Source of the DNA: Arachis hypogaea
Lineage: Eukaryota; Streptophyta; Magnoliopsida; Fabales; Fabaceae
NCBI RefSeq assembly: GCF_003086295.3
Contig: NC_092054.1
Location: 33,324,393-33,388,392 of the forward strand
DNA length: 64,000 nucleotides
Direction of reading: 5' to 3'
Position numbers and translations under genes: made by a program. How positions within the stretch are numbered: the stretch's first letter is position 1; each line of letters begins with the position of its first letter. Below, one piece after another: positions 4,201-41,579 of the stretch. The notes beneath the pieces were generated by a model that was not told the DNA's origin, ran no database searches, and was given only the letters and a program-made list of their open reading frames with translations.

Positions 4201-4236
4201 TTTGCTTGAGGACAAGCAAACCTCTAAGTTTGGTGT
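4201..4236 (+). promoter_or_regulatory. Internal hairpin plus polypurine-tract-like module (copy 1 of 2 in this element)
   Basis: TTTGCTTG-AGGA-CAAGCAAA forms an 8-bp stem with an AGGA loop (4201-4220). Four nt later comes TAAGTTTGGTGT (4225-4236), which matches the polypurine tract just before the 3' LTR (6488-6501). The module lies 24 nt before the ORF3 start at 4260. It resembles a central polypurine tract. This reading is inference. Confidence 0.6.
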
Positions 4237-4259
4237 GTTTATCCGCGATCACTAAGATC

Positions 4260-5393
4260 ATGGCTCCTAAAGGAAAATAATCCACTCCAAGAGGCAAGAA
4301 AGAGAGCGTTCCAAAACCACTTTGGAATCAAGGGAAGTTCTTATCTAAAGAACATTCAGACCATTATAACAAAATAATGGGTCTGAGATCAGTGATCCCG
4401 GAAGTTAGATTCGATCTGAAAGAAGATGAATATCCGGAGATCCAGAAGCAAATTCGAATCAGAAACTGGGAAGTCCTAGCTAATCCTAAAACGAAAGTAG
4501 GGAGGAACATGGTTCAGGAGTTCTATGCTAATATGTGGCAAACTGACAAGCAGAAACTATCTGGGACTGCTTTCTATGACTATCGGACCGTGGTCAGAGG
4601 AAAGATTGTTCATACCCACCCTGACAGGATCAGGGAGATCTTAAAGCTACCTCAGCTGAAAGATGATCCAGACTCCTTCAACAGGAGAATGATGAGAACA
4701 GACAAGGGCCTGGATAAGATTCTAGAGGACATATGTATCCCTGGAGCCAGGTGGACCACCAACACAAAGGGTGTTCCAAATCAACTCAAGAGAGAAGATC
4801 TCAAACCAGTCGCCAGAGGATGGCTGGACTTCATTGGGCATTCTCTGTTGCCCACTAGCAACCGTTCTGAAGTAACTGTTAAAAGAGCAGTGATGATCCA
4901 TTGCATCATGATGGGAAAAGAAGTGGAAGTTCATCAGCTAATCTCAACTAAACTCTACAAAATTGCTAACAAAAATTCTAAAGAGGCCAGGTTGGCTTAT
5001 CCAAGCGTGATTTCTCTGCTCTGCAAGGACGCTGGAGTAAGGATGGGAATAACTGAGTATATCTCAGTTGAGAAACCAATCATCAAGGCATCAATGGAAA
5101 AACAACAAGCACAGGATGATCCCACCAAGAAGAAAACACAGGAATCTCTCCCAGAAATCCCTCAATCTGAATACTGGGAGTATCTTGAGACGTCTGTTAC
5201 CAAGATAAGGGAAGCGATGGAACAAATAATAAAGGAACAAAAGGAACACAGTCAAATTCTTACCTATATGTTTAAAGAACAAGAGGAGCAAGGGCGTGAC
5301 TTAAGGGAATTGAAGCGCCATAAGTTATCTCTTGAAGGACCAAGCACCCCACAGATCAGAGGAACATCCACTTCCCAGAACAAAGGTTGTTAA
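4260..5393 (+). pseudogene. Third ORF of the FIDEL-like element, 'putative plant transposon protein' type, nonsense at codon 7
   Basis: ATG at 4260 (MAPKGK) is followed by TAA at 4278-4280. The same frame then stays open to 5393, and the longest uninterrupted ORF starts at 4377 (338 aa). Blocks such as EFYANMW, RIREILKLPQL, IPGARW and LLPTSNRSEVTVKRAVMIHCIM match in order the 415-aa protein at 38848-40095 (EFYSNFY, IRQALSLPLIP, LPGSRW, VFPSTHESSFTTDMAVLLWCIL). I know this block as the 'putative plant transposon protein' domain found in many legume retroelements. There is no signal peptide and no membrane segment, so 'env' is not supported. The last 70 residues are charged and likely coiled coil (EQIIKEQKEHSQILTYM). 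Function unknown. Confidence 0.75.
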
Positions 5394-6464
5394 ATTCCAA
5401 TTTCTGCTTTAACTCTGTGATAGTGTCATTATAGAAGTTCACCTTAGGAGTCATATAGTAGTAATTAGTATCTATTTTGATTTTATCTCCAATTAAGTCA
5501 TAGTTTATTTTTCTCATCATCAACAAACATGAATAAAATAGTAGATCTTTTGAATAAGAGGCAATAAAATTTCGAGTTTTAATAAGAGAAATTCTAATTA
5601 GTTACATGTGGTGGCAATACTTTCTGTCTTCTGAATGAATGCTTGAACAGTGCATATGTCTTTTGAATTTGTTGTTTAAGACTGTTAAATATGTTGGCTC
5701 TTGAAAGAATGATGAACATGAGACATGTTATTGATAATCTGAAAAATCATAAAAATGATTCTTGAAGCAAGAAAAAGCAGCAACGAACAAAGCTTGTAGA
5801 AAAAAAAAAGAGAGAGAAAGCAAGCAGAAAAAGCCAAAGCTCTTAAAACCAAAAGGCAAGAGCAAAAAGCCAATAGCCCTTAAAACCAAAAGGCAAGGGT
5901 AATAAAAAGGATCCCAAGGCTTTGAGCATCAGTGGATAGGAGGGCCTAAGGGAATAAAATCCTGGCCTAAGCGGCTAAACCAAGCTGTCTCTAACCATGT
6001 GCTTGTGGCGTGAAGGTGTCAAGTGAAAACTTGAGACTGAGCGGTTAAAGTCAAGGTCCAAAGCAGAAAGAAGAGTGTGCTTAAGAACTCTGGACACCTC
6101 TAATTGGGGACTTTAGCAAAGCTGAGTCACAATCCAAAGGGTTCACCCAATTATGTGTCTCTGGCATTTATGTATCCGGTGGTAATACTGGAAAACAAAG
6201 TGCTTAGGGCCACGGCCAAGACTCATGAAATAGCTGTGTTCAAGAATCATCATACTGAAATAGGAGAATCAATAACACTTTCTGAATTCTAAGTTCCTAT
6301 AGATGCCTATCACTCTGAGCTTCAATGGATAAAGTGAGATGCCAAAACTGTTCAGAAGCAAAAAGCTACTAGTCCCACTCATCTAATTAGAATCTGAGCT
6401 TCACTCAAAAACTCTGAGATATTATTGCTTCTCAACCTATTAGTCTTCTATTTTATTTGTCTAG
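5394..6464. other. 3' non-coding region of the FIDEL-like element
   Basis: No convincing ORF. It holds A-rich stretches with AAAACCAAAAGGCAAG repeated at about 5847 and 5883, and ends at the terminal hairpin. Comparable non-coding regions lie between the two modules of the other Athila-type elements. It probably carries RNA processing or packaging signals, but nothing specific can be named. Confidence 0.6.
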
Positions 6465-6501
6465 TTGCTTGAGAACAAGCAACAGTTTAAGTTTGGTGTT
6501 G
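6465..6501 (+). promoter_or_regulatory. Terminal hairpin plus polypurine tract
   Basis: TTGCTTG-AGAA-CAAGCAA (6465-6482) forms a 7-bp stem; here the loop is AGAA and not AGGA. The tract TAAGTTTGGTGTTG (6488-6501) touches the LTR start at 6502, as expected for the plus-strand primer of an LTR retrotransposon. Confidence 0.75.
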
Positions 6502-8038
6502 TGATGAGCGGATATTTTATACGCTTTTTGGGGTTAATTTCATATAGTTTTTAGAATGTTTTTAGTTAGTTTTTAGTTTATTTCCATTAGTTTTTAGGAA
6601 AAATTCATAATTCTGGACTTTACTATGAGTTGTATGTTTTTCTGTAATTTCAGGTATTTTTCTGGCTGAAATTGAGGGAGCTGAGCAAAAATCTGATTCA
6701 GGTTGAAAAAGGACTGCTGATGCTGTTGGATTCTGACCTCCCTGCACTCAAAGTGGATTTTCTGGAGCTACAGAACTCGAAATGGCGCGCTTCCAATTGC
6801 GTTGGAAAGTAGACACCCAGGGCTTTCCAGCAATATGTAATAGTCCATACTTTGCTCAAGGATAGACGACGTAAACTGGCGTTCAACGCCAGTTCTCTGT
6901 CCAATTCTGGCGTCCAGCGCCAGAACAGGATTAAAAGTTGGAGTTCAACGCCAGAAATGGATCCAAACCTGGCGTTGAACACCCAAAACAGCCTTATGCA
7001 CGTGAATTGCTTAAGTCTCAGCCCCAGCACATACCAAGTGGGCCCCAGAAGTGGATCTCTGCACCATCTATCATAGTTTACTCATTTTCTGTAAACCTAG
7101 GCTACTAGTTTAGTATTTAAACAACTTTTAGAGACTCATTTTGTATCTCATGATATTTTAGATTAAAACTTTGTACTCTTTGATGGCATGAGTCTCTAAA
7201 CTCCATTGTTGGGGGTGAGAAGCTCTGCTGTGTCTCAATGAATTAATGCAAGTATTTCTGTATTCTATTCAAACATGCGTGTTCCTATCTAAGATATCCA
7301 TTCGCGCCTAACTATGGAGAAGGTGATAATCAGTGACACTCATCACCTTCCTCAATCCATGAACGTGTGTCTGACAATCACCTCGGTTCTACATCAGATT
7401 GAATGAATATCTCTTAGATTCCTTAATCAGAATCTCCGTGGTATAAGCTAGATTGATGGCGGCATTCATGAGGATCCGGAAAGTCTAAACCTTGTCTGTG
7501 GTATTCCGAGTAGGATTCAGGGATTGAATGACTGTGACGAGCTTCAAACTCGCGAGTGCTGGGCGTAGTGACAGACGCAAAAGGAGGGTGAATCCTATTC
7601 CAGCATGATCGGGAACCTCAGATGATTAGCCGTGCTATGACAGAGCATTTGGACCATTTTCACAATAGGAGGGGATGTAACCATTGACAATAGTGATGCC
7701 CCAACACACAGCTTGCCATAGAAGGACGTGCGTGCGTGAATCAGAGGACAGAGGAAAGCAGAGATTCAGAAGACAAAGCATTTCCAAAACTCCAACATAT
7801 TCTCCATTACTGCATAACAAGTAATCTTTAACCCATGCTCTCTTGTTTATTCGCAATTCAACTGATAAACACAATTGACTTCCTGACTGAGAATTGCAAG
7901 ATAACCATAGATTGCTTCAAACCAACAATCTCCGTGGGATTCGACCCTTACTCACGTAAGGTATTACTTGGACGACCCAGTGCACTTGCTGGTTAGTGGT
8001 ACGAGTTGTGAAAAGTGTGATTCACATTTCGTGCACCA
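6502..8038 (+). repeat. 3' LTR of the FIDEL-like element (1537 bp)
   Basis: Begins TGATGAGCGGATATTTTATA right after the polypurine tract and ends ATTTCGTGCACCA. It contains reiterated palindromic motifs at 6875-6990 (CTGGCGTTCAACGCCAG, CTGGCGTCCAGCGCCAG). Near its end is GTGGGATTCGACCC at 7936-7949, related to the GACGACC box of the other LTRs. The left boundary is fixed by the tract, the right boundary by the change to a different LTR at 8039. Confidence 0.88.
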
Positions 8039-9278
8039 GTAAGAAAGGAGGAGGAAAGAAGGAGCAAGGATAGAAGAAAGAAGTAAGAATTTAAAAACAG
8101 GGTGCGACGCGCACGCGTGCATCACGCGTACGCGTGAAAACTGAGTTGCCCATTCGACGCGTAAGCGTCTGGCACGCGTACGCGTGGGTGGTCTGAAAGC
8201 GAAAGGACGCGCACGCGTCAGGGACGCGTACGCGTGGGTGTTTTTGTGCTTCTAGCACAGTTCCAGCCCCAGACCATCACAACTCTCTGTTCAGCACGCT
8301 ATTTACACCGATTGCCATATTCACGCGTGCGCGTACTTGACGCGTACGCGTGGATTTCCCAGGTTGCAAAGGACGTGCACGCATCCTAGACTAGAGCCAG
8401 GGGACAACAAAGACTCAACACACATTCTCATTCACTTAGTTTTGAAGTCTCTATCATTATAGTTTGTTTTCTTATTTCCTTACTCTTTTATTTCCCATTT
8501 ACTTTGTTCAGAGTTACATATGGATATCTTTGATTTTGGAAAGTATTAATGCAAGAGTTATTTTTTTACATTTAATTTCATTATTTGTTCGATTATCATC
8601 TTCCCTCAATTTATTATTTCAAAATAGCTTTTATTAAATTAATTTTAATTACCATGTCTCCTTTCTACTTCCTTTACATGTTTGTGAAATTGGCATCCAT
8701 GTCAATGGAGTAGGCTCTCAACTTGACTTTGGAGTTGATTAATAGGAGACCCTTGAATTGGAATACTCAAGTGTTAATTTGTAATTGGGAGTTGTTGGCT
8801 GACTCTCTAGTCACTAACGCTAATCCTTCCATAGGAGAGGATTAGGACTTGTGAATCAGAGTTGGTTCAGTTATTTGACTTTCCTTTATTCGGTAAGGGA
8901 TAACTAACTAGAAACAATAACCTCTTACTATTAAACTTGGGAAAATTCAACAAGGATAGAACTTCCGATTAATCTTCTCCTAGTCAAGGCTTTTTATTTT
9001 AATTACATAAAACCTTTCATTAATTTCCATTGCTTTAATGTATAATCATTTATTTTTCCATTCTCCAACTCTAAAATTTCTCAGAAAATTCCTGACCAAT
9101 AAATTGCATTCTTTTGTCAACTCGTTGGGAGACGACCTGGAAATTCTACTCCCAGTATTTTATTCTTAAATTGTGACAACTCTTTTTAAATTTATAAGCG
9201 GAATTTTCGTCGGTTAAGAATTGTACTCGCAACGTTATTTCCATTATAAATTCTTAATTGGCATTTTTCCTCCCGTCA
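8039..9278 (+). repeat. Older Athila/Tat-type LTR fragment interrupted by the FIDEL-like element
   Basis: The last 160 bp align by eye with the end of the 26-kb element's LTR: GTTGGGAGACGACCTGG, ACTCCCAGTATTTTA, then a CCCGTCA terminus at 9278 (compare CCCGCATCA at 18356). The front holds its own palindromic cluster of CACGCGTACGCGTG type (8101-8390). The start of this LTR lies left of the FIDEL-like element, outside the window. After 9278 comes GTACG, a possible target duplication into the Tekay-like LTR. No internal region is seen, so it may be a solo LTR. Confidence 0.65.
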
Positions 9279-16865: not shown

Positions 16866-18356
16866 TGATAAACTACTATTTCATGGTTTATATTGTGTTT
16901 AATTGTGTGGTTTTATCATGATCTTTACCCACTTATTCATTAAATAAGCATGCATTTATATTTCCTTCCTAAAGATGTTTTATGGTTGAAAACTTGCTTC
17001 CTAGAGACTTTTAATTATGTATTTTATTTCTCCCTTATTTCATTCGATGCCGTGATCTGTGTGTTAAGTGTTTCAGGCTTTATAGGGCATGAATGAGTTG
17101 GACATTAGAAGGGAAGCCTGCAAAAATGGAAGGAACACAAGAAATTGAGGAGATGACCAGCGAGAAGCGACGCAGCCGCATGGATGATGCGACCGCACAG
17201 AAGAGAGCAATTTGAAGCGACGCGGCCGCATGGATGACGTGACCGCGCGGCATAGAATAGCACGAGCGACGCGGCCGCATGGACGACGTGTGCGCATGGC
17301 AAAGCAGAAACGCGAATGACGCGTCCGCATGAGCGACGCGATCGCGTGACGTGCGCGATCTGCATAATTTACAGATTCACTGGGGACAATTTCGGGCCCT
17401 ATCTTGGCCCAGTTTTTGGCCCGAAACAGCAGACTAGAGCCAGAGAACATGCAGAAACCAAGGACAACATTCATTCTACACAATTTTTAGTTTTAGATCT
17501 AGTTTTACTCCTCCTCTAGGTTTTTCTCTCTACACATTCATAGTTTTTAGGATTATTATTTTACATTCATAGTTTGGGATATTGAGAAGAGTTATTACCT
17601 CATCAAGACTTCATCATTCTAGTTCGTTTTCTTTACTTGGTCTTACTCTTCCATGTTCTTTGCTTTGTTTAATTTTACCCTTGGAATATTCTTAGGGATA
17701 TTTAATACAGGGATCACTTTTATTTTTAATTGACTATTTTAATTTTATTTACAATGTCTTTCCTTAATTCCTTTTTATATGCTATGAATTTTACCTTTAT
17801 GAGTGAGTAGTTCCCTAACTTGATGGGGAATTGATTGAAAGGAACCCTTGAGTTCGAAGGCTTGAAAGAAAAGTTGTAATTGGGTTTATGGTTGGATTGC
17901 CTCTTAATCACTAACACCAATCCCTTTTAATTAAGTGGATTGCAACTTGTGAACGGACGTAGTATTCCAACTTGTTTAACTTTCCTTCACCTAGTGAAGG
18001 ATAACTAAACAGGATAACCTTTAATTGTCAATTAATCCTGAGAGCATTCCAACAATAATAGGGATTCCAACTAATCAATTCCCAGTCAAGACTTTTATTT
18101 ACATTATTCAAATTCATCAATTTAAATTCCTGTTTGCCCAATTCAAACCTTTTTTTTGAAAACCTCTGATTAATAAAATAGCACACTTTTCTGCAACCCG
18201 TTGGGAGACGACCTGGGATTCATACTCCCAGTATTTTAAATTCAATTTTCTGTGACACCTTTCTAAATTGATAGGCGAATTTCTGGCAAGTTAAGAACTA
18301 TACTTGCAACATACATATTTCAACAATTCTTAATTCGCCAATTTCTGCCCGCATCA
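16866..18356 (+). repeat. 5' LTR of the 26-kb element (1491 bp)
   Basis: Starts TGATAAACTACTATTTCATG and ends CCCGCATCA. It contains a GC-rich cluster (17157-17364) of GACGCGGCCGCATGGATGACG-like units. The 3' LTR is 82 bp shorter, mainly because it has fewer of these units. Near the end TGGGAG...CTCCCA (18202-18230) pairs around a GACGACC box. Confidence 0.93.
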
Positions 18357-18361
18357 ATTTT

Positions 18362-26998: not shown

Positions 26999-27000
26999 TT

Positions 27001-28675: not shown

Positions 28676-28712
28676 AAGCATGAGGACATGCTTGGATTAA
28701 GTGTGGGGAGGT
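28676..28712 (+). promoter_or_regulatory. Terminal hairpin plus polypurine tract
   Basis: AAGCATG-AGGA-CATGCTT (28676-28693), then TTAAGTGTGGGGAGGT (28697-28712) touching the LTR start at 28713. Confidence 0.8.
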
Positions 28713-29697
28713 TGACAAACCCCATTTGTAGGGTTTATCTTGTATTGATTTTTGGGGATTTTATCAACTTTTACCCACATTTATTCAATGAAATAGCATG
28801 GTTTTATAACTTCTCCCTTAATTGTGCTTAAGAGTGAAAACATGCTTTTTAGGACTTAAAATAGCTAAATTTAATTCACCTTGATTCTATTAGATGCCTT
28901 GATATGTTTGTTAAGTGATTTCAGATTTAGGAGGCAAAGATTGGATTAAGGGAATGAAGAAAAAGCATGTAAAGTTTGAGAACTCATGAAGAAATGATGG
29001 AACCAAAAAGCTGTCAAGCCTGACCTCTTCGCACTTAATTGACCATAACTTGAGCTACAGAAGTCCAAATGATGCGGTTCCAGTTGGGTTGGAAAGCTAA
29101 CATCCGGGGCTTCGAAATGATATAAGATTTGCCATAGTTGCATCGCTCATAGGGGCGCGCACGCGCACAGTACGCGGACGCGCCGTTGGTGGCACATGAC
29201 TCACTTAATGCAACACGTGGCCAGCGATTTTAGAAGCCTTGTGGGCCGAATCCAACTCATTTCAGATGCTATTTAAGCCAAGGATTGAAGAGGGATCAAT
29301 ATACTTTAATCATTAGTCATAGTTTAGTTTTAGAAGTAGTTAGAGTTAGAGAGAGAAGCTCTCCCTTCTCTCTAGAATTAGGATTAGGAATTAGGGTTAG
29401 ATTAGGATCTCATAGTTCTAGGTTTAATTCAAGTCTCCTTCTACTTCTACCTTCAATTGATGATTGCTACACTTTGGTTCTTCTCTCTATCCCTATTCTC
29501 TTGTTGTAATTTCTCTTATTTTGTTTCTAGGTTTTGTAATTGAGATACTCTTGTTCTCTTTATTTTCTTTCAATAATGCAATTTGAGGTAATTCATGATA
29601 ATTGTGATTTCCTTGATTGTTGTTATTAATTCTTTACATTCAATTGTAGTTAGAATTCATTCTTGTTGTGATTGACTATACTTTTCTTTTGTGCCTT
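28713..29697 (+). repeat. 3' LTR of the + non-autonomous element, first part
   Basis: Starts TGACAAACCCCATTTG after the polypurine tract and is cut at 29697 by the - strand element. It continues at 37916. Confidence 0.9.
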
Positions 29698-31286
29698 TGA
29701 CGAACGGATTTTTGACGGTTTAGAAATTCACTAATAAAATCTCGTTGTAAAGTATAGTTTCTAAACCAATCACTAATCCTTTCATACAAAAAGTTGTTTG
29801 TCACTAAAACAAACCCCTAAAATCTATAAACCGAAGTATTGGACCTCGGGTCGTTCTCCCTAGGAATTACAATAAAGTGTCTTGTTATTGGTTATGAGTT
29901 ATTTTGGGGTTTTGGATAAGAAGCATAAAAAAATAAATGGCAATGAAAATAAACTAACAACTATAAAAGGCTCTTGGCAAGGTGTGAGAACTAGAAGTCC
30001 TATCCTAGTTATCCTTCTCAATTGTGATGAGAATTGTTCATTGCTACCACTTAGTTAACCCTTACTAATTAAAGGAAAGTCAAGTGGATGAATTGACTTG
30101 AGCCACAAGTCCTAGCCAACTCCCAAGGAAAGACTAGCTTTAGTGCACTCCAAACCAATTAGCAATCTCTCCAATTATCAATCAACAAAGGAATTAGATA
30201 ACTCAAGTGTCACTAATTACTCTACCTAGGCCAAGAGGAACAAAATCTACACTAAAACTAAAAGAGGCATTTCAACAAACACATAGAGTGCAATAGAAGT
30301 AAACATTATTAATTGCAAGAATTAAAGGAATCTACAACTACAAAAACAAGAGATCAACAATAGAAAAGCAAAGAGGAACAATTGTTATGAATTACCTCTT
30401 ATTGAATTGAAAGAAAATAGAAGGAACAATAGTAGATCTACAACAAAATATAAGAACAACATAAAGGAAATTACAACTAAAGAATGGAAGAAGAATGAAT
30501 GTAACAACAAGGAATTGAGATGTAGAAGTAGAAGAACATGAATCTAAATCTAGGTCTAAGAACTAAACCTAATCCTAATTCTAATTCTAGAGAGAAGTGA
30601 GAGCTTCTCTCTCTAGAAACTAACTCTCACTACTAAACTAAGCTAAAACTAAACTAATGATAACTAACATCTAAAGTGTGAAAAGTATGCAAAAGTCCCC
30701 TTATTCCCTTTCAATCCTTGGCTTAAATAGCATCAGAAATGAGTTGGATTGGGCCCACAGGGCTTCTAAAATCGCTGGCCACGTTTTGCATTAAGTGGGT
30801 CATGTGCCACCATCGGCGCGTCCGTGTACCGTGCGCGTGCGCGTCATCATGAGCGGTTCAACCATAGCAAATCTTATATCGTTTCGAAGCCCCGGATGTT
30901 AGCTTTCCAACCCAACTGGAACCGCATCAATTGGACCTCTGTAGCTCAAGTTATGGTCGATTAAGTGTGAAGAGGTCGGCTTGACAGCTTTCCAGTTCTT
31001 TCATTTCTTCATGAGTTCTCCAACTTTTCATGCTTTCTTTCTTCATTCCCTTGATCCAATCTTTGCCTCCTAAACCTTAAATCACTTAACAAACATATCA
31101 AGGCATCTAATAGAATCAAGGTGAAATAAATTTAGCTATTTTGAGTCCTAAAAAGTATGTTTTCACATTCAAGCACAATTAAAGGAGAATATACAAAACC
31201 ATGCTATTTCTTGAATAAATATGGGTAAAAGGTGATAAAATCCCCAAAAATCAATACAAAACAAACCGTCAAATTGGGGTTTGTCA
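29698..31286 (-). repeat. 3' LTR of the young non-autonomous element (1589 bp)
   Basis: On the - strand starts TGACAAACCCCAATTTGACG at 31286 and ends CCGTTCGTCA at 29698. Same length as the partner at 36322-37910. Confidence 0.94.
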
Positions 31287-31323
31287 ACCTCCCCACACTT
31301 AAACCAAGCATGTCCTCATGCTT
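31287..31323 (-). promoter_or_regulatory. Terminal hairpin plus polypurine tract
   Basis: On the - strand AAGCATG-AGGA-CATGCTT (31323-31306), then TTAAGTGTGGGGAGGT (31302-31287) at the LTR border. Confidence 0.8.
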
Positions 31324-32778
31324 AAACCAAGAATGAAATAAGGGTATGGCATTTATTCAATGGAAACTAACTAAATGCAATCTACCTATATGCAACTATC
31401 TAAATGAATGCAAGTGCTTGGTCAAAATAAATCAATTCCCAAGAAACATATATGCACAAGGGCTAAGGACTAGCAAGTCTAATCCACAATTGAATTGAGT
31501 TATTAAATATTTTTTCAAACTTGTATGAAGAATGATGATCATAGGTGAAAACATGTAATTGAGCATCGAACCCTCACCGGATGTGTTTGCACTCTATTCG
31601 CTCAAGTGTTTAGGGTTGATTCACTCAATTCTCCTCTATTTCATGCTTTCCAAGATTTGTTTTTCTTCTAACAATCAACATTTATTTCATGCATGCATAC
31701 AAGTATCATGAGGTCTTTTCATTGGTTGTAATGGGGCTAGGGTCAAGGTAGGATGCATATTTGGTCAAGTGAGCTTGAAATTTGAATCTTTGATAAGCTT
31801 AAACTTCCCACCTAACCTATGACATCCTATACAATTAAGTTCTAACCTAACTACCCATTTTCTCACTTTTTCACATACTCATGCATTTTCTTTTCATTTC
31901 ACAACTCATATGCATTGATCTTATTGAGCTTCACCTTGGGGCATTTTGTCCCCTTTTTATTTCTTTCTTTTTCGTTTTCTTTCTTTTTCCATTTTTTTCT
32001 ATACTTTTCATATATTTTTTTTTGTTTTTCTCATTTTTTCTTTCTTTCAAACTATATACAAGAGTACCAATGCATAAGGTCTATACATTTAATCAATACA
32101 TGAGCATGTACCCAATTCCCAATATTTACAATAATAATACAAAACTACCCTTTTATTCACCCAATGTCCCAAGGTTCCCACACTTGAATGATACACACAC
32201 TCTAGCCTAAGCTAATCAAAGATCCAAATAAAGGACATTCATTGTTTTTTCGCTTTAAGGCTTGTAATGTGCTAAATTAAGAACAAGTGGGTTAATCGTA
32301 GGCTCAAATTTGGCTAACAAAGGAAGATAGAAGGTAAGGCCATTTGGGTGAGTGAGCTAATGAAATGATGGCCTCAATCACATAAATGCATGAATACACA
32401 AAAGAATGGACATAAAGAATCAAACAAATCAAAGATTACAATCATAGAAAGAGAATAATGCACACAAGAAGGAAAAATAAGTGGTTATAAGATGTAACCA
32501 CACCGTTAGGCTCAAATCTCACAAGCTTGTGTTCTTAGCTCATAAATCATGTTCCACAAAATATATAATTCAAGCAAGTTCTATGAAAAGTTTTCCACTC
32601 AAATCAATTGGTGCCCTATAGATAGAAATCCTTGGAAAATTTCATTATTTTGACTAAGCTTATTGTGTATATATATGCAAAAATAAGAAAATGCAACAAA
32701 AATCCAAAAAACCTAAAATGAAATGCAAAAGTGTTGGGATTAGAAATTTGTCACCCAAAATCGCCGATCGGTCGGACG
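31324..32778. other. 3' non-coding region of the young element
   Basis: AT-rich, no supported gene. It aligns in patches with the corresponding regions of the two other Athila-type elements, on the opposite strand. GGGGACAAAATGCCCC (- strand, near 31939-31954) is the counterpart of the small palindrome at 28031. Confidence 0.55.
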
Positions 32779-32817
32779 ACCTCCCCACACTTAAAAGTTT
32801 GCACCGTCCTCGGTGCA
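32779..32817 (-). promoter_or_regulatory. Internal hairpin plus polypurine-tract-like module
   Basis: On the - strand TGCACCG-AGGA-CGGTGCA (32817-32800), then TTAAGTGTGGGGAGGT (32794-32779). The tract is identical to the terminal tract of the same element. Confidence 0.68.
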
Positions 32818-33720
32818 CTCAAAGATGAGCAAGGGGGTACGGCGACTCTCCGGATTGCTATGTGTTCTTTCTTCCACTTCCATGGTTGCTTGTGGTGCAT
32901 TCGTTATGAAAAACAAAAATATAACACCATAAGATGAGAAGATATAAAAGCAAGGAAGCATACATTGTTGGAATGAGGTAAATCACTAGAAATGAGTGAG
33001 TGAATTAGTGTGACATTAATGACAAATAAGTGTGTGAATTCTAAATTGCGCGGTTTAGAACACACATTAGCATAAAAGGGTGATGTCACAAAAGAAGCAT
33101 GCACTTCACTTATCCTAGTGTGCTTGAGATGCTTTAAGTAAGCTTGTAAGGTAAGACAAGCATTAGAGAAGCATGAAAGCATTCAAGTCAAACATATGGA
33201 TGGATATAATCATGAAATACAAGGCATTAAGGTAAATGCTCAACATTATCCATCAAGAGATTGCCTAATCAAAGAATACGGTTCAAATCACATGGTGGCT
33301 AGCTACAACATGCAATTCAAAAGAGTTATAAGCTCGGAGACAATTCTCATCACTTGGTATTTTTCAAAAGGTACGCATGAAGAACTCAAAACCAAGTAAC
33401 AAAATATAACCTCAATCATAGAATCCAACAAAGATCATCTAAAAAACATTCATGCTAAAATAGCATTTAGGCAATAAGGGATATAGCAATGTATAGTAAA
33501 CAAAGTCAATACTCCAACACGTATAATGAAAAGAGAGAAAATAAAATGAAAGCTAAACTAAAACTAACTAATTAACTAACCAACTAACTAATTAACTAAC
33601 TAAAATAAATGGTTATCCAAGGTGTTTGGAAGTGTTGGATGAGGGGTAGGAGGAGGGAAGAAGAAAGGAAAAAGGGAGAAATGGAAGGAGGAGAAGAAAA
33701 GAAATGGATGGAAGAAAGGG
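32818..33720. other. Non-coding stretch of the young element where ORF3 is expected
   Basis: Short ORFs here have no recognisable similarity. 33535-33602 holds a degenerate AACTAACTAATT repeat. Compared with the 26-kb element, ORF3 is missing and not replaced. Confidence 0.5.
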
Positions 33721-33975
33721 CATCCACGCGCACGCACGCATGGCGCGCGCGCGTCGTTGGCTTATTTCGAGAGTGGCGCGTACGCGCCATGTGCGCGTAC
33801 GCGCGAGTTGGTTTGTGCGAAAGGCACAGTGCTAGCGCAGCTGAGGCACAACTCTCGGGTCAATGTATGGAGGAATGAAATTTTGCAATCCACGCGTACG
33901 CGTACATGGCGCACGCGCGTGGATGGTCGAAAACACTTGATGCACGCGTACGCGCACGGTGCGCATACGCGTGGA
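33721..33975. repeat. GC-rich palindrome cluster (GCGCGTACGCGC / CACGCGTACGCGTG type)
   Basis: Five or more CpG-rich palindromes including GGCGCGTACGCGCC, GCGCGTACGCGCG, CCACGCGTACGCGT and CATACGCGTGG. Same relative position (after the first ORF and its hairpin) as the clusters at 3514 and 24163. Confidence 0.82.
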
Positions 33976-34179
33976 TGGTGCTCTGTTTTTCAAAAAAAAA
34001 AATTTTCTATGTTTTTGCACCAATCCAAGCATTCCAAACCTCCAAACAGCTACCAAAACACCATAAAACCTTATTTAACATACTTAAACTATCAAACATA
34101 CTCAACTAACTAAACAAAACATGAAATTAAACTAATTCTACCAATATAGACAAAAGAGAAAATGAAAGGATTTTACCAT

Positions 34180-34197
34180 GGTGGGTTGTCTCCCACC
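34180..34197 (-). other. Post-ORF hairpin GGTGGG-AGACAA-CCCACC
   Basis: On the - strand it starts 49 nt after the stop of the 643-codon ORF, the same spacing class as after pol at 3272 and 23979. It is kept although the upstream coding sequence is unrelated to gag-pol. Confidence 0.62.
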
Positions 34198-34246
34198 TAG
34201 CACTTTTGTTTATTGTCCTTAAGTTGGACTTATGGGGAGCTCCTCA

Positions 34247-36178
34247 TCAAGGTGGCTTGTGCTTGTATTCATCTTGGAACTCCCACCAATGCTTGGTTCT
34301 CCATTGTGCCCCAAGATTCTTCATGGATTGAGCCAAGTCTTGATGGAGTTCTTCACAAGCTTGGGGCTCCCAAAGTTGATCCTCTTCTTGTAATCCGGGA
34401 TCCCACACTTTATTTTCACACCCGTCTTGAAGTTGATCATCATTATTAATCCATCCGGGTGGTGAGTAAGGTGAATTCTCTATATAGTGGCCAACAATCC
34501 TCCTAGACCCATCTATTTGAGCACTACTCCAACCTTTATATCTCATGTTTGATGCATCAACCATAATGAGCCTTGATTTGCAACGCCAACCACAAAACCT
34601 TTTTCGTTTACGCTTCATCCCACAAAGCTCCCTAAGTTGGCCATCCGTTTCAAGCAAACCATATTCAAGTGGGATAATAAAGCTAGTAGAAATAAATTTC
34701 ACCCACTCAATTGAAGGAGTAGATGGCAACCTAGGCAAAGACAACTCCAAGAGTTTTGATAAAGCGTATTCAATTCCCATCCTCCTTTTTCTAAGGATTT
34801 CCACCTCTTCACAAGACTTCTCAATTATAATCCTTTGTTCAACAATTTTATATAAACCTTTTCTCCTACTCAAGTCATAAATGGGAGGGTAAGAAAAATT
34901 TACCTCCACATTGCTTTCCATCTTGTTGGGAGAAGGTTCTTCATGCTCAAAGGATTCTTCACCACTAAGGTTTGATGCGTGATCTTCATCACCAAGGGAA
35001 CTCATTTCTTGCTCTATCCCATCCAAATCTTCATATGGAATATGTCTTGGAAGGTGTGCACTTTCCTTCCTAGCATCAATTTCAATCATCTTGGAGGGGT
35101 TTTCTTCAATTCTAGATTCCCATGGAGGCTCCGCATCTCCTAAGTCTTCAACCAATTCTTCCCTTTCTTCAATAATCATAGCTTCCTCCAATTGTTCCAA
35201 TACAAAGCAACTTCCCTCATTCTCCACCAATCTCTCTTTTATGTTATGCTCTTCATTTGATTCCCCACATGTAGCCATGGGAGTTCCTTGAGAGTTCAAG
35301 CATTGGGATGCTAACCGGTTTACCACCTCATCCAAGGCGGCCGTGAATTGCTGCACATCCCTTTTCATTTCCTCTTGTCCTTGAACAAGAACATCAAGGA
35401 TGTCATCCATTGGAGGTTGGGGTGGATGGAAGGGTTCATCAATTTGGGGGAAGGGTTCATAGTAGGAAGGTGGTTCTTCTTGGTAGAGTTGTGGTGGTTC
35501 AATAATTTCCACTCTTTCCACTTGTTGCACAACACGCTCCATGGTTGCTTGAAATTGATCCAATGCTTCCTTGAGATGATCCCTTGACTCTTGTTCCTCT
35601 TGGATAGTATGATTAGGATCATGTGGCTCTTGGATCAATGGATATGAGTATTCTTCCATGGGGGGTTGTGGTGGAAAGTAGTATTCATCTTGTGGTTGAA
35701 AATTTTCATATATTGGAGGTGGTTCATCTTGGTAATAATGTGGAGGAGGTGGCTCTTGAAAATATTGATGTTGGAATGGTGGTGGTTCCATGTATGGTTC
35801 ATATGGCTCATAAGGTGGTTGGTATGGTGGATAAGAATTAGGGTCATATGGAGGTATTTGGTGAAAATAGGCTTGTGAGTGTGGTTGAGGTTCATGTTGA
35901 GGATATGACTCATAGGCATATGGTGGTGGTTCTTGAAAGTCACAAGGAGATTCACCATAGCCATTGGGTTGGTATGCATCATAGAATGACTCTTCTTCAT
36001 AGTGCATTGGTGGAGGTTGTTGCCATGAAGATTGATCATATGCATATGGCTCCACCCACCTTTGGTCATCCCATCCTTGATGCACATCTTCATTGAAGTT
36101 CCCATTTCCTACAACATAGTTGTAATCACACTCATAGCCAAAGTGAGAATTCATAGTAAAAGTAAAAATAAGAAACAA
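34247..36178 (-). CDS. Proline/tyrosine-rich protein of unknown function in the gag-pol position of a non-autonomous element
   Basis: Intact 643-codon ORF on the - strand. The first ATG is at 36178. A second in-frame ATG at 36154 (MNSHFGYECDYN) may be the real start, since the first eight residues (MFLIFTFT) look like read-through. About residues 40-215 are rich in Pro, Tyr, Glu and Gln, with irregular PPP/EPYEPY/PPPHYYQ repeats. Two charged helical stretches follow (DHLKEALDQFQATMERVVQQ, EEMKRDVQQFTAALDEVV) and probably form coiled coils. The middle is very acidic. The C-terminal third has a basic patch (MKRKRKRFCGWRCKSR) and DASNMRYKGWSSAQIDGS. I see no capsid core, zinc knuckle, protease, RT or integrase and do not recognise the family. 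A gag-like RNA-binding role or a captured host gene are both possible. Lack of stops in a young copy suggests recent selection. Confidence 0.8.
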   Translation of the reverse strand: MFLIFTFTMNSHFGYECDYNYVVGNGNFNEDVHQGWDDQRWVEPYAYDQSSWQQPPPMHYEEESFYDAYQPNGYGESPCDFQEPPPYAYESYPQHEPQPHSQAYFHQIPPYDPNSYPPYQPPYEPYEPYMEPPPFQHQYFQEPPPPHYYQDEPPPIYENFQPQDEYYFPPQPPMEEYSYPLIQEPHDPNHTIQEEQESRDHLKEALDQFQATMERVVQQVERVEIIEPPQLYQEEPPSYYEPFPQIDEPFHPPQPPMDDILDVLVQGQEEMKRDVQQFTAALDEVVNRLASQCLNSQGTPMATCGESNEEHNIKERLVENEGSCFVLEQLEEAMIIEEREELVEDLGDAEPPWESRIEENPSKMIEIDARKESAHLPRHIPYEDLDGIEQEMSSLGDEDHASNLSGEESFEHEEPSPNKMESNVEVNFSYPPIYDLSRRKGLYKIVEQRIIIEKSCEEVEILRKRRMGIEYALSKLLELSLPRLPSTPSIEWVKFISTSFIIPLEYGLLETDGQLRELCGMKRKRKRFCGWRCKSRLIMVDASNMRYKGWSSAQIDGSRRIVGHYIENSPYSPPGWINNDDQLQDGCENKVWDPGLQEEDQLWEPQACEELHQDLAQSMKNLGAQWRTKHWWEFQDEYKHKPP

Positions 36179-36300
36179 AAGCTAACAAGAAATAATGAAA
36201 CAAAGTCCTAGAACAAGCAAAACTAACAAGCAATCCAAAAATCAAGCTATTCACAATATTCACATATATACAATAACCAATAACATAACACCATTGCAAC

Positions 36301-36318
36301 TCCCCGGCAACGGCGCCA
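36301..36318 (-). other. Primer-binding site, tRNA-Asp type, of the young element
   Basis: On the - strand TGGCGCCGTTGCCGGGGA, 3 nt after the 5' LTR end at 36322. Identical to the site at 18362-18379. Confidence 0.92.
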
Positions 36319-36321
36319 TTT

Positions 36322-37910
36322 TGATGAATGGATTTTTGACGGTTTAGAAATTCACTAATAAAATCTCGTTGTAAAGTATAGTTTCTAAACCAATCACTAA
36401 TCCTTTCATACAAAAAGTTGTTTGTCACTAAAACAAACCCCTAAAATCTATAAACCGAAGTATTGGACCTCGGGTCGTTCTCCCTAGGAATTACAATAAA
36501 GTGTCTTGTTATTGGTTATGAGTTATTTTGGGGTTTTGGATAAGAAGCATAAAAAAATAAATAGCAATGAAAATAAACTAACAACTATAAAAGGCTCTTG
36601 GCAAGGTGTGAGAACTAGAAGTCCTATCCTAGTTATCCTTCTCAATTGTGATGAGAATTGTTCATTGCTACCACTTAGTTAACCCTTACTAATTAAAGGA
36701 AAGTCAAGTGGATGAATTGACTTGAGCCACAAGTCCTAGCCAACTCCCAAGGAAAGACTAGCTTTAGTGCACTCCAAACCAATTAGCAATCTCTCCAATT
36801 ATCAATCAACAAAGGAATTAGATAACTCAAGTGTCACTAATTACTCTACCTAGGCCAAGAGGAACAAAATCTACACTAAAACTAAAAGAGGCATTTCAAC
36901 AAACACATAGAGTGCAATAGAAGTAAACATTATTAATTGCAAGAATTAAAGGAATCTACAACTACAAAAACAAGAGATCAACAATAGAAAAGCAAAGAAG
37001 AACAATTGTTATGAATTACCTCTTATTGAATTGAAAGAAAATAGAAGGAACAATAGTAGATCTACAACAAAATATAAGAACAACATAAAGGAAATTACAA
37101 CTAAAGAATGGAAGAAGAATGAATGTAACAACAAGGAATTGAGATGTAGAAGTAGAAGAACATGAATCTAAATCTAGGTCTAAGAACTAAACCTAATCCT
37201 AATTCTAATTCTAGAGAGAAGTGAGAGCTTCTCTCTCTAGAAACTAACTCTCACTACTAAACTAAGCTAAAACTAAACTAATGATAACTAACATCTAAAG
37301 TGTGAAAAGTATGCAAAAGTCCCCTTATTCCCTTTCAATCATTGGCTTAAATAGCATCATAAATGAGTTGGATTGGGCCCACAGGGCTTCTAAAATCGCT
37401 GGCCACGTTTTGCATTAAGTGGGTCATGTGCCACCATCGGCGCGTCCGCATACCGTGCGCGTGCGCGTCATCATGAGCGGTTCAACCATAGCAAATCTTA
37501 TATCGTTTTGAAGCCCCGGATGTTAGCTTTCCAACCCAACTAGAACCGCATCAATTGGACCTCTGTAGCTCAAGTTATGGTCGATTAAGTGTGAAGAGGT
37601 CGGCTTGACAGCTTTCCGGTTCTTTCATTTCTTCATGAGTTCTCCAACTTTTCATGCTTTCTTTCTTCATTCCCTTGATCCAATCTTTGCCTCCTAAACC
37701 TTAAATCACTTAACAAATATATCAAGGCATCTAATAGAATCAAGGTGAAATAAATTTAGCTATTTTGAGTCCTAAAAAGCATGTTTTCACATTCAAGCAC
37801 AATTAAAGGAGAATATACAAAACCATGCTATTTCTTGAATAAATATGGGTAAAAGGTGATAAAATCCCCAAAAATCAATACAAAACAAACCGTCAAATTG
37901 GGGTTTGTCA
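36322..37910 (-). repeat. 5' LTR of the young non-autonomous element (1589 bp)
   Basis: On the - strand starts TGACAAACCCCAATTTGACG at 37910 and ends AAATCCATTCATCA at 36322. The flank GCCTT follows at 37911. Confidence 0.94.
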
Positions 37911-37915
37911 GCCTT

Positions 37916-38491
37916 CCAAGTGTTTGATTAAATGCTTGGAAGAATGTTAGACTAGAATTTTATGTTCTTGGCCTGAGAAGGTAACTTAGGATTTCTTGAG
38001 TCACTAGTGTCCAATTGATTGATAGTTGATAGCCATTAACTCTAGCCTTCATTAATCCAATTAGTGGAAAGCTAGGACTTATGGACTAGGATTGATATAA
38101 CTCACTTGACTTTCCTTTGTTAATCGATTTAAGGATGACTAAGTGGGATTAATCCTTGCAACTACCATACTTGTGGCTAGTGATAATGATGAAGACCCTT
38201 GACAATCAAACCTTGCCAAGACCATTTTGTGAATAAAGTTTTCCTACCATTTACTATTCATATTCCTCATCCAAAACCCCAAAATAAACAAGTCCATAAC
38301 CAATAACAAGAACACTACCCTGCAAGTCCTTTGAGAGACGACCCGAGGTTTAAATACTTCGGTTTATAGATTTTAGGAGTTTGTACTTGTGACAAACAAA
38401 TTTTGCATGAAAGGATTATTGTTGGTTTAGAGACTATACTTCAACGAGATTTCATTTGTGAAATTCTAAACCGTCAAAAATCCATTCATCA
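37916..38491 (+). repeat. 3' LTR of the + non-autonomous element, second part
   Basis: Continues the LTR cut at 29697 and ends AAATCCATTCATCA at 38491, then the target duplication CCCAT. It includes TTGAGAGACGACCCGAGG, the counterpart of the GACGACC box in the other LTRs. Confidence 0.9.
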
Positions 38492-38496
38492 CCCAT

Positions 38497-38844
38497 ATGG
38501 CATTATGCACTTCTCTATGTTATTCTAATATTCAATGCTTGCTTTTCACAAATTCCCCTTACTATTATATTAATTGAATTTAATTGTCAATACAAACGTG
38601 ATGGTTTGTTACAAAGTAATGCTTGGTCTATGCTACTCGTGCCCTTTGCCGGTATGCCAATAAACACCTTGCATTTACTTGTCATCATATGCACTAACTA
38701 TTTTCCATTAATGATCTTTCACATGTACTCATGAGCATGTGTTAACATCATTTACCTTTTAATGTGCATTTCTAACCATCCTTTTCCGTTCTCTTCATTG
38801 CTATATATCTCTTTAAATTTAATTTACTTTCTCTTCCCTCTTTC
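38497..38844. other. Spacer between the nested insertion and ORF3, ending in a pyrimidine tract
   Basis: AT-rich with no gene. The last 20 nt (TTCTCTTCCCTCTTTCAG, 38829-38846) form a pyrimidine tract plus CAG directly before GATGG, a good 3' splice-site candidate for ORF3. The homologous place in the non-autonomous element (26985-27002) is also a pyrimidine tract ending in TAG. Confidence 0.55.
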
Positions 38845-38847
38845 AGG

Positions 38848-40095
38848 ATGGCCACCAAGAAAGGAAAAGAGAAAGCTACTCCCAAACCTCCAGCAAGAAG
38901 AGGAACTAAAAGAGTGGCAGAGCCTTCTTCAACTACAGTCAAGCCCTCAAAAAAAAGGGTTAAGAGGATTATCAAGATTGATGAAAAGGAAAAAGCCTTT
39001 CCAGCAAAGGACACTACGCGATTTCCAAATCGCTACTGTGAGCAGATGTTCCCTATTCTAGCTGAGAGGAGTTACAACAACGAACACCTTCTTATCCTCC
39101 CGCCCAACATTGCTACTTTTGTTGAACCGCAAATTGAACGAAGACAATGGGGTTTCCTACGGAGACAGCCAAGGCAGGTCAATCTCTCTTGGGTAGTCGA
39201 GTTCTACTCTAACTTCTACCTGCCCACTCTGCAGTCTGTCTATGTACGTCAGAAGCATGTCCCCATTACAGAAGAGGCCATTCGACAAGCTCTAAGTCTT
39301 CCCCTTATTCCAGAAGGACTGGACACCTTTCAAGAAGCCGCACTCAAGCGCCAGCAGTACCAATTTGACTGGGAAGATGTTCTCAGAGTTATCGCATTAC
39401 CTGGCAGCCGTTGGATCTACGAATACCATCGTACCCGCCCTAAGGGAATATTGGCTTCAGCACTTACCTTGGAGGCTCACGTATGGGCACAGATCATGTC
39501 CCATTACGTCTTTCCGAGCACTCACGAGTCCTCCTTCACTACGGACATGGCCGTTCTACTATGGTGTATCCTTACAGACCAGCCTCTGAATCTACCAAGA
39601 CATATCCAGAATGCCATGGGACACCTACAAATTGCGGGCAACTTACCTTTTCCCGTCTTGGACTCAGATCTTGTCTCAGCAGCCGGAGTTTCCTACAGAG
39701 CTGGAGACACCAAAGCCATGCTCCCATGGGATGATCAGTATGTCCCCAATGGGAAGTACCTCAGACTTCCAGCAGCCACTACCAGCCTTCCTACTGCTCC
39801 AGTTGAAGATATTCCTTCTTCAACACCACAAGCACCTACAACTGATGAACTGCTCCAGCAGATAATCAGAAGATTGGATCAGCAAGAACAGAAAGTGAAG
39901 TTAAGAGAGCGCCGTAACGAGCGCCGATTCAAACACCTCAAGGAGCTACTCAAAGGAAAATTTAAGGACTCAGACACCCCGGACTCCACTTCTTTTACCA
40001 GCACAGGGAGCCATGATGGTCTCGACTGTGGAGATACTACTACCTGCCCACCCCTGTTCCTGACAGATGGCACCGAGGACGGTGCAAAGCCTTAA
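38848..40095 (+). CDS. Third ORF of the 26-kb element, intact 415-aa 'putative plant transposon protein'
   Basis: The ATG at 38848 follows the pyrimidine-CAG site directly, so translation from a spliced RNA is plausible. The first 50 residues are very basic (KKGKEKATPKPPARRGTKR, KPSKKRVKRIIK) and look like a nuclear-targeting or nucleic-acid-binding tail. The central domain (about 95-290) has LSWVVEFYSNFYLP, ALPGSRWIYEYH and VFPSTHESSFTTDMAVLLWC. It shares block order with the ORF3 at 4260. The C-terminal part has a Pro/Thr-rich linker and a charged helix (LLQQIIRRLDQQEQKVKLRE). No signal peptide or membrane segment, so it is not an envelope protein. The last codons overlap the AGGA hairpin, and the stop TAA is the first part of the polypurine-like tract. 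It is intact although gag-pol of the same element is dead. Function unknown. Confidence 0.78.
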   Translation: MATKKGKEKATPKPPARRGTKRVAEPSSTTVKPSKKRVKRIIKIDEKEKAFPAKDTTRFPNRYCEQMFPILAERSYNNEHLLILPPNIATFVEPQIERRQWGFLRRQPRQVNLSWVVEFYSNFYLPTLQSVYVRQKHVPITEEAIRQALSLPLIPEGLDTFQEAALKRQQYQFDWEDVLRVIALPGSRWIYEYHRTRPKGILASALTLEAHVWAQIMSHYVFPSTHESSFTTDMAVLLWCILTDQPLNLPRHIQNAMGHLQIAGNLPFPVLDSDLVSAAGVSYRAGDTKAMLPWDDQYVPNGKYLRLPAATTSLPTAPVEDIPSSTPQAPTTDELLQQIIRRLDQQEQKVKLRERRNERRFKHLKELLKGKFKDSDTPDSTSFTSTGSHDGLDCGDTTTCPPLFLTDGTEDGAKP

Positions 40096-40107
40096 GTGTG
40101 GGGAGGT
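40070..40107 (+). promoter_or_regulatory. Internal hairpin plus polypurine-tract-like module overlapping the ORF3 stop
   Basis: GCACCG-AGGA-CGGTGC (40070-40085), then TTAAGTGTGGGGAGGT (40092-40107). The hairpin encodes part of the ORF3 C-terminus (GTEDGA), and the tract contains its stop codon. Confidence 0.68.
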
Positions 40108-41542
40108 CGGTCAGTACCTGACTTCTGGAGGAAACTTCTCTTCCCTAGCACTAATAAATTAGGATATTTTAGTTAGTTTTTCTTTCTTTTATAGAATAGG
40201 ATAAATTGCATAGTAATAGGTTAATTGCATGCGTGCTCTACTTGATTGAAAAGACAATAAGTTTCTTCTAAGACTCTATCTTTGGAACAAAATTTTACTA
40301 ATTTTTAAAATTTTTATGATAAATTTGCTTGAAGTTATATATTTGGAACATGATGTTTGAGCTAAAGAACACACAACCTGTGAAGATTTGAGCCTTTATG
40401 CATGGTTAAATTATTTAACCATAATTATTTTATTCCTGTGTGTTTACTTCTCTATGATTGTAATCTGTATTTTGTTTCATCCTATATGTCCAATATTTAT
40501 TATATTTATATGATTGCACATGATTGAGGCCATTATTTGTTTAAACTCACTTATCCAAATTAAGCCTACCCTTTTCAATTACCTTTATTAACCACTTTGA
40601 GCCTTTAAATCCCATTTGTTCTATATTTCACCACATTACTAGCCTTAAGCGGAAAGACAATTGTATATCCTAAATTGAATCTTTGGTTAGCTTAAGATAG
40701 AATTGTGTGTGCTAGTTAAGTATGGGAAATTGTGGGAACAAAAGTTATTAGGAGAATGTGTCATGATAATTTAAGGGGAATTTGGATACCTACTCATGTG
40801 AAACTATAAGAATAAAAAAAAATCTATGTGCATTGACAAGCTATATTTATTCTTATGTTTCTATGTAAAAATAATAATAATAATAATAATAAATCCAAAA
40901 ATATCTAATAAATAAATAAGGGGACAAAATTACCCCAATTTAAGAATTCAAAAGTCAATGCACATATGATAAAAATTAAAATAAAAAGTTGATACATGAG
41001 TATGGAATATAAAAGGGGAATTCTGGGTAGCTAGGTATGAATTCTAAGATTACGCAAGTTATATAGGTTAGGTTGAAGCTTGGGTTAATTAAAGATTCAA
41101 TTTATAAGCTCACTTGACCATACATGTATCCCTACCTACCTTGGCCCCATTACAACCTTGAAAAGACCTCATGATGTTTGCATTGGTATATTAACTGTTG
41201 TTGATTGGTTAGGAGAAGAACAAAAGTTAGAAAACATGATTAGAGAAGGATAGAGTGATTACCCTATACACTAGAGAGATTAGAGCGTACATACATCATC
41301 AGTGAGGGTTCAATGCTTGAATTTTCATGTTCCCTGCTTTCATGAGCTATCCTATTGCATTTTTATCTGCTCTTACTTTATAAGAATTGAATTAGTGGAA
41401 TTTGACTTATAATTGTTTTGAAGAACTTACTTACTTTTGATCAAGTGGACAAGAATCATATAGTTGCATTCATATATATAGGTTGCATTCCATTTCATAG
41501 GTTTTACATGTTCTTACTCATTTCATTTATCTCCTTCAATTA
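40108..41542. other. 3' non-coding region of the 26-kb element
   Basis: No supported ORF. (AAT)n tract at about 40868-40893. GGGGACAAAATTACCCC at 40920-40936 is the counterpart of the small palindromes in the two non-autonomous elements. Patchy similarity to 27164-28675. Confidence 0.55.
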
Positions 41543-41579
41543 AGCATGAGGACATGCTAATGATTAAGTGTGGGGAGGT
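41543..41579 (+). promoter_or_regulatory. Terminal hairpin plus polypurine tract
   Basis: AGCATG-AGGA-CATGCT (41543-41558), then TTAAGTGTGGGGAGGT (41564-41579) touching the LTR. Confidence 0.8.

Follow-up and report, generated by a model that had tools for sequence, protein, structure and literature searches.

Additional polypurine tracts have been described in several groups of retroelements, and an extra tract in Athila-type elements is not itself new. Athila4 and Calypso carry one such tract in the linker that runs from pol to the 3′ long terminal repeat (LTR) (PMC2829016, citing Wright and Voytas 2002); the same account describes as unclear what extra tracts do. Sireviruses (Ty1/copia) contain multiple tracts, together with an inverted repeat near the terminal tract that has been proposed to help RNase H processing (PMC2829016). 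A pyrimidine-rich stretch upstream of the tract, the U-box, is found in retroviruses and LTR elements (PMC3582472). The lentiviral central polypurine tract and PPT2 of Ty1 are each a second tract that resembles the terminal one and may provide a second plus-strand start. Here, we describe a short hairpin that stands beside both the internal and the terminal tract in each of four LTR elements (A to D), which we take to be of Athila type following an earlier label, within 64,000 nucleotides of the Arachis hypogaea genome (contig NC_092054.1, positions 33,324,393 to 33,388,392; hereafter the window). Judged from its sequence, it is a real and very abundant hairpin on both likely plus-strand priming tracts, very probably selected as a structure, with a putative role in primer definition. 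To our knowledge, how short or impure priming tracts are selected from kilobases of RNA/DNA hybrid is unsettled for most elements; a selected hairpin beside both tracts is a concrete, testable cis element that could serve as an annotation marker for the ends and internal boundaries of Athila elements; present by the tens of thousands in a single genome, its copies amount to a natural covariation experiment.

The elements share with Athila4 and Calypso their lineage type and a tract lying between pol and the 3′ LTR, and the passage describing the Athila4 and Calypso tract makes no mention of a hairpin, of covariation or of position relative to ORF3 (PMC2829016), the open reading frame (ORF) found between pol and the 3′ LTR in A and D. 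Repeated tract copies with an inverted repeat close to the terminal tract also recall the Sireviruses; as described in that passage, however, the Sirevirus repeat arms flank the tract/LTR junction and are absent at upstream copies, whereas the hairpin reported here lies wholly 5′ of the tract, at the internal copy as well. The original prediction likened the arrangement to the lentiviral central tract, and the likeness stands in that a second tract of the same type is present (59 of 59 listed internal/terminal pairs) and fails in that the internal tract is not central, lying 1.0-2.3 kb from the 3′ end. It further differs from the lentiviral tract and Ty1 PPT2 in carrying a hairpin and in that no termination sequence was identified, the search for such signals having covered hairpins. 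As in the U-box systems described, a pyrimidine-rich stretch lies upstream, but here the hairpin intervenes between this stretch and the tract. Relative to these sources, what is new is the hairpin at the tracts, duplicated tracts and tract-associated structure being already known kinds.

No report of a tract-adjoining hairpin was found among the results listed for the open-access literature searched, a scope outside which most subscription papers lie. In the texts as searched, the words stem and hairpin have no occurrence in the Diaspora paper (PMC1142308), PPT and hairpin none in PMC2410132, and hairpin and stem-loop none in PMC6317226; the passages of a review of extra ORFs (PMC7264820) describe no such hairpin, the word hairpin not having been searched there. 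Among the matches listed in literature containing module sequence words, none concerned plant-element priming sites. Viral contigs gave no match to the first module search and no relatives of the integrase piece of D; one viral-contig match, on a contig without repeats whose ORFs read as phage-like, was taken as chance. A search of genome contigs gave no match, and no cross-species evidence was obtained.

Hairpin and tract modules in the window

All eight copies of the hairpin and tract that had been predicted in the window were found at their coordinates and on their strands (Table 1), and the predicted loops were likewise borne out, AGGA in seven copies and AGAA in the terminal copy of A. 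The stems are perfect over 6-8 bp with the closing G-C counted, that of the A terminal copy reaching 8 bp when the G at 6464 is included, and 11-13 nt separate the loop-closing base from the tract word AAGT. As had also been claimed, each element has one terminal and one upstream copy, with tract starts 1472-2263 nt apart (A 2263, B 1549, C 1492, D 1472); the terminal tract abuts the 3′ LTR in A, B, C and D. The description of the tracts as polypurine holds for B, C and D (AAGTGTGGGGAGG, 11 of 13 purines; hereafter G-type) and not for A (AAGTTTGGTGT, 6 of 11; hereafter T-type), for which it is therefore a positional name.

A hairpin of at least 6 bp with a 4-nt loop occurs at the corresponding position with a frequency of 0.0072 at random points of the window and in 6 of 6 plus-strand modules tested; the eight modules are related and hence do not represent eight independent events. 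Chance or low complexity as the source of the hairpin was ruled out by this frequency control and by the covariation described below. Coding constraint on the D internal hairpin, within which ORF3 stops, was considered and rejected, because B and C show the hairpin but no ORF3 and because the reading frame changes from the 12-nt to the 13-nt spacer class. No Rfam family matched the window at gathering score.

Stem covariation and abundance in the genome

Genome-wide searches covered one genome, of 2.56 Gb in 440 contigs. Apart from total match numbers, the figures for each pattern come from the first 100 places listed, on which extrapolated counts also rest, and the listed rows of seven pattern searches (four free-stem patterns, a GCATG-stem pattern, AAGTGTGGGGAG and AAGTTTGGTGTTG) all lie on contig C1 and are not a random sample. 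The free-stem patterns fix GAGGAC, the spacing and the tract and leave both arms free apart from one outer letter; the control for each pattern was the same pattern read backwards. With a 12-nt spacer (AAGTGTGGG), 25,487 matches were obtained, with a 13-nt spacer 10,085 and with an 11-nt spacer 5,150, against 1 in each backward control, and the AAGTTTGGK pattern of the T-type tract gave 23,332 against 15, making about 64,000 matches in the genome versus 1-15 per control. Among the 100 matches listed for each, internal-type copies account for 39 at the 12-nt spacer and 100 at the 13-nt spacer, and terminal-type copies for 61 at the 12-nt and 98 at the 11-nt spacer. Extrapolation from these matches gives about 20,000 internal and about 20,000 terminal copies of G-type; the possibility that the internal copy is absent from most family members thus looks unlikely, internal copies being by this estimate about as common as terminal ones.

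The original prediction held that the stems differ in sequence and keep their pairing, as expected of a selected structure, and this passed a covariation check computed within one genome and without R-scape. The set comprised 300 rows from the 12-nt G, 13-nt G and AAGTTTGGK patterns, equal to 99 distinct 22-mers in which the loop is fixed by the pattern. Pairing was kept in 92.4% of 693 cells (57.8% shuffled), double-change cells numbered 251 (88.5 shuffled), and the covariation score was 0.801 (0.207 shuffled, and at most 0.158 with the structure slid by 1-3 columns). The number of pairs changed on both sides (6) was no more than the shuffled 6.0, and the further pair types, 18 versus 15.9 shuffled, were matched by 39 of 500 shuffles. 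Outward from the closing pair, the types are UA/CG/GC at pair 1, CG/UA/AU at pair 2, AU/CG at pair 3, CG/GC at pair 4, GC/AU/UA at pair 5 and UA/AU/GC at pair 6, with pairs 7 and 8 formed in 53 and 17 of the 99 distinct 22-mers. A second set of 157 distinct 26-mers, drawn from the 12-nt G and AAGTTTGGK patterns and from rows chosen for a purine at pair 1, had 721 of 785 cells paired, against 378 with whole arms shuffled (standard deviation 22, maximum 459). In these sequences only the closing pair is constant; the letters of all other stem pairs vary, with pairing and loop kept, and the hairpin is very probably selected as a structure.

Among the 300 matches listed, the 5-pair stem is Watson-Crick in 255, needs a G-U pair in 14 and is broken in 31. 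By copy number among these matches, all four stem types with at least 10 copies are Watson-Crick over 5 pairs; the eight types with 3-9 copies comprise five Watson-Crick, one G-U and two broken; the three two-copy types, two that need G-U and one broken; and the 35 singletons, seven Watson-Crick, six that need G-U and 22 broken. Among amplified stem types, intact ones prevail.

A tree was built from the downstream flank only of 39 internal copies, leaving out L098 (interrupted by another LTR) and short-flank rows. On this tree, pair 1 is exchanged between C-G and G-C, with five changes on either arm of the stem (36 rows with C/G or G/C letters), and both independent row pairs on well-supported branches are compensated (2 of 2). 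D and L016 (CACC with GGT), for example, are grouped with L099 and L100 (CACG with CGT), in a group to which L008 and L009, both with pair 1 broken, also belong. Changes on the 5′ versus the 3′ arm number 2 versus 1 at pair 2 and 3 versus 2 at pair 6.

With the GCATG stem fixed and the loop left free, AGGA occupies the loop in 95 of the 100 matches listed. The AAGTGTGGGGAG search, composed of the anchor and one outer not-G letter and thereby excluding 12-spacer GCACC and GCACG copies, returned a hairpin of at least 5 bp in 76 of 100 listed rows, against a shuffled mean of 4.8 and maximum of 13. By a 4-pair, 4-nt-loop criterion, 83 of the 100 have a hairpin, with loops AGGA (77), GGGA (2), AAGA (2), AGAA (1) and TGCT (1); the 17 hairpin-less rows are nine of a coding copy of the tract and eight others, mostly decayed by eye. 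The AAGTTTGGTGTTG search gives no hairpin fraction for T-type ends, because its not-G first letter excluded the usual GCTTG copies. The spacer from loop-closing base to tract is 12 or 13 nt in 125 of the 128 modules in hand (10-14 nt range searched), and the 25 nt upstream of the module are 72-91% pyrimidine in class averages. A longer stem between the tract and the upstream pyrimidines, hinted at by folding, was rejected as not above composition (mean z -0.17 to 0.52 in four classes). After the tract, a second hairpin at or above the 95th percentile of shuffles is present in half of 54 distinct terminal sequences (G-type LTR starts), and after the internal tract it is near chance, in 8% of 48. 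An inverted repeat of the GATAAACC..GGTTTATC type opens many G-type LTRs (41580-41620, 28713-28745 and the complement of 31255-31286).

Among the listed pairs, internal and terminal tracts were never of mixed type. Listed G-type pairs (n = 47) are 1392-1788 nt apart and T-type pairs (n = 12) 1196-1378 nt (eight) or 2071-2226 nt (four), with T-type pairs as close as 996 nt in the loci in hand (L067); overall, the internal copy lies 1.0-2.3 kb upstream of the terminal one. The two types differ in their placement relative to ORF3: T-type elements (tract AAGTTTGG) have the internal module 5′ of this ORF, whereas G-type elements (AAGTGTGG) have it on the 3′ side. ORF3 lies 3′ of the T-type internal module in 8 of 13 internal-centred loci (L061-L090), the other five being without an ORF3 match, and 5′ of the G-type internal module in D, L010, L016 and L023; five of the nine G-type internal loci examined have no ORF3 match, and L038 has short matches only. 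The module is thus retained with ORF3 on either side as well as in loci in which no ORF3 was found, and C, which has no pol match to A or D, keeps both its internal and its terminal module. Since the T and G tracts differ and the copies within an element match, concerted evolution or a separate gain of the second copy in each lineage is implied, either of which would point to use.

Putative priming function and rival explanations

The module is proposed to be a plus-strand priming site made up of a pyrimidine-rich tract, the AGGA hairpin and a G-rich tract, the same module being kept at two places in one Athila-type Ty3/gypsy element. The terminal copy would act as the normal polypurine tract, its position at the 3′ LTR suggesting the 3′ plus-strand priming site, and the internal copy, like the central tracts of lentiviruses and Ty1, would give rise to an additional plus-strand segment. 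Both copies are probably priming sites, and an RNA-structured priming module used at two sites is the explanation that we favour, with moderate confidence, for the whole. The covarying hairpin at both likely priming sites suggests an undescribed structural part of element copying.

During this copying, the hairpin would make the reverse transcriptase (RT) pause just after the tract had been copied, and the paused enzyme would hold its RNase H over the required cut at the tract end. Such placement is proposed because the base of the stem lies 16-21 nt from the 3′ end of the tract (in the retrieved loci whose stems have at least 5 pairs, 16-17 nt for T-type, 18-21 nt for G-terminal and 19-21 nt for G-internal modules), near the 17-18 nt of HIV-1 RT, for which RNase H cuts at distances of 18 nt and 17 nt from the polymerase site are described (PMC5766924). 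That the hairpin serves as a pausing gauge setting the RNase H cut is a tentative and rather doubtful proposal. It is also somewhat unlikely that a reusable AGGA-hairpin cassette stalls RT at a set distance, thereby placing the RNase H cut, and is carried twice for two plus-strand starts, as a plant counterpart of the central-tract flap in which structure would replace an unbroken run of purines, T-type elements being the example.

Several results weigh against a structured priming module of this kind or temper the evidence for it. For HIV-1, affinity-based in-register stalling has been argued not to determine the cut (PMC5766924). Stem length and spacer are correlated at 0.51 in G-internal and 0.07 in G-terminal modules, a partial trade-off; the tract and the upstream pyrimidines do not pair beyond what their composition predicts; the tract of A is not purine-rich; and folding z-scores for the eight 60-nt module stretches are modest (-0.3 to -3.8). 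The covariation and tree evidence is drawn from a single genome, and the flank tree is weakly resolved, with 13 of 33 inner branches open, several long branches unsure and sign tests that are not significant, the change counts being too few. Where rows were chosen for a purine at pair 1 (100 listed), three of the six stem types with at least three copies are broken; recurrent deamination at methylated sites could account for some broken stem types. Copies of the tract word that lack the AGGA hairpin also exist, both in 33-bp units of T-type elements, which account for most of the 100 listed among 107,168 genome-wide matches to AAGTTTGGTGTTG, and in the coding copy of the G-type tract (9 of 100 listed AAGTGTGGGGAG rows). 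Tract and hairpin are therefore separable, the tract being kept without the hairpin in these copies.

The 33-bp units are spaced, each ending in AAGTTTGGTGTTG, and lie about 0.8 kb upstream of the T-type internal module (for example at 14321788-14321888 of contig C1). The coding tract copy (L091-L096; peptide AKCGE or SKCGE) precedes the internal modules of relatives by about 1.9 kb, and its frame is open through the tract in four of six copies fetched, with one stop in each of the other two. It had been considered as a third tract module, a candidate that was dropped as it has no AGGA hairpin and reads as coding sequence.

Constancy of the loop while the stem varies (AGGA in 95 of 100 and 77 of 83 hairpins, matches listed) would also suit an RNA signal for another step, such as Gag/nucleocapsid binding, packaging, a dimer contact or RNA export, in which the exposed G's of the loop would be the contact and the tracts would be adjoined by chance. 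C, with no match to the coding pieces of A and D, keeps both copies, which is what any cis signal that is used in trans should do; however, the loop-to-tract spacing is narrow at both sites (12 or 13 nt, 125 of 128), which a packaging signal would not need, and we consider this explanation unlikely. The internal copy could also be a functionless relic of duplication or of inter-element recombination at the tract. Athila lineages are described as recombining often (PMC2410132), and the internal and terminal stems of T-type elements are alike, but G-type internal stems are paired and distinct (CACC, CACG, CATC) from the terminal ones (CATG), and the tract types agree in all 59 listed pairs, which leaves a relic improbable.

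A role of the internal module in expressing ORF3, whether by providing a 3′ splice site or by forming a leader structure, would fit the T-type elements, where the module lies just 5′ of ORF3 in 8 of 13 internal-centred loci, follows a stretch averaging 91% pyrimidine and has an AG inside the hairpin. It is very improbable given that the G-type module lies 3′ of ORF3 (D, L010, L016, L023), that ORF3 of D has its own acceptor-like site, that terminal copies are followed by the LTR and that loci without an ORF3 match retain the module. The perfect palindromic arms of the inverted repeat suggest that it might work in the form of duplex DNA, for example by binding a protein or forming a cruciform. 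This is highly improbable, as all arm pairs other than the closing one vary while pairing is kept, a freedom that a sequence-specific DNA dimer site would not have, and the constant part is the loop.

Host elements and neighbouring sequences

The modules had been ascribed to four Athila-type elements, for which coding matches were obtained in A and D; in tblastn (E up to 1e-3), neither B nor C matched the gag, RT, integrase or ORF3 pieces of these two. The pol order RT-RNase H-integrase was found in D and A from Pfam pieces, and ORF3 (PF20167) follows pol in both. A extends past the left edge of the window. D contains gag, RT-RNase H-integrase and ORF3, has a primer binding site (PBS)-like stretch beginning at 18362 and carries nested sequence, B and C included, inserted between its pol and its ORF3. 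Target duplications of 5 bp flank D and C, and B is regarded as rearranged or truncated because no primer binding site follows its first LTR and no matching duplication was found.

Table 1. Hairpin and tract modules, host elements and ORF3 genes in the window (hairpins given as 5′ arm-loop-3′ arm).
Feature	Position	Strand	Description
A internal module	4201..4236	+	TTTGCTTG-AGGA-CAAGCAAA, then AAGTTTGGTGT at 4226-4236; 5′ of ORF3
A terminal module	6465..6501	+	TTGCTTG-AGAA-CAAGCAA, then AAGTTTGGTGT at 6489-6499; at 3′ LTR start
B internal module	27127..27163	+	GCACCG-AGGA-CGGTGC, then AAGTGTGGGGAGGT at 27150-27163
B terminal module	28676..28712	+	AAGCATG-AGGA-CATGCTT, then AAGTGTGGGGAGGT at 28699-28712; abuts LTR
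C internal module	32779..32817	-	TGCACCG-AGGA-CGGTGCA, then AAGTGTGGGGAGGT
C terminal module	31287..31323	-	AAGCATG-AGGA-CATGCTT, then AAGTGTGGGGAGGT; abuts 3′ LTR
D internal module	40070..40107	+	GCACCG-AGGA-CGGTGC, then AAGTGTGGGGAGGT; contains ORF3 stop TAA 40093-40095
D terminal module	41543..41579	+	AGCATG-AGGA-CATGCT, then AAGTGTGGGGAGGT; abuts 3′ LTR at 41580
Element A, right part	1..9275	+	pol, ORF3, 3′ LTR from about 6500; right end not established
Element B	25120..29605	+	LTRs 99.6% identical over 890 nt; rearranged
Element C	29698..37910	-	LTRs 99.1% identical; target duplication GCCTT; PBS-like TGGCGCCGTTGCCGGGGA
Element D	16866..42988	+	LTRs 16866-18356 and 41580-42988, about 92% identical; target duplication AGATG
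A ORF3	4281..5390	+	PF20167 Transposase_32, E 2.2e-42; env-like position; 3′ of internal module
D ORF3	38848..40095	+	PF20167; 5′ of internal module, overlapping it

The ATG of the D ORF3 directly follows a consensus-like plant 3′ splice site, CTCTTCCCTCTTTCAG (pyrimidine tract, CAG, G, ATG; 38826-38850), which suggests that it may be translated from a spliced mRNA. Just inside the 5′ LTR of C lies an ORF of 644 amino acids (34250-36181, minus strand) with no Pfam match. A hairpin-like word, TGGGAGRCAACCC, is found at 3316-3328 and 24025-24037 on the plus strand and at 34183-34195 on the minus strand, about 45-50 nt past the stop of pol (A, D) or of the 644-amino-acid ORF of C. Elsewhere in the window are two tandem arrays with palindromic GGCGTT/AACGCC-like cores, at 3518-3624 and 10840-11016 (periods 31 and 70), and a large inverted repeat at 50301-56238, with arms of about 2.9 kb that are 93% identical.

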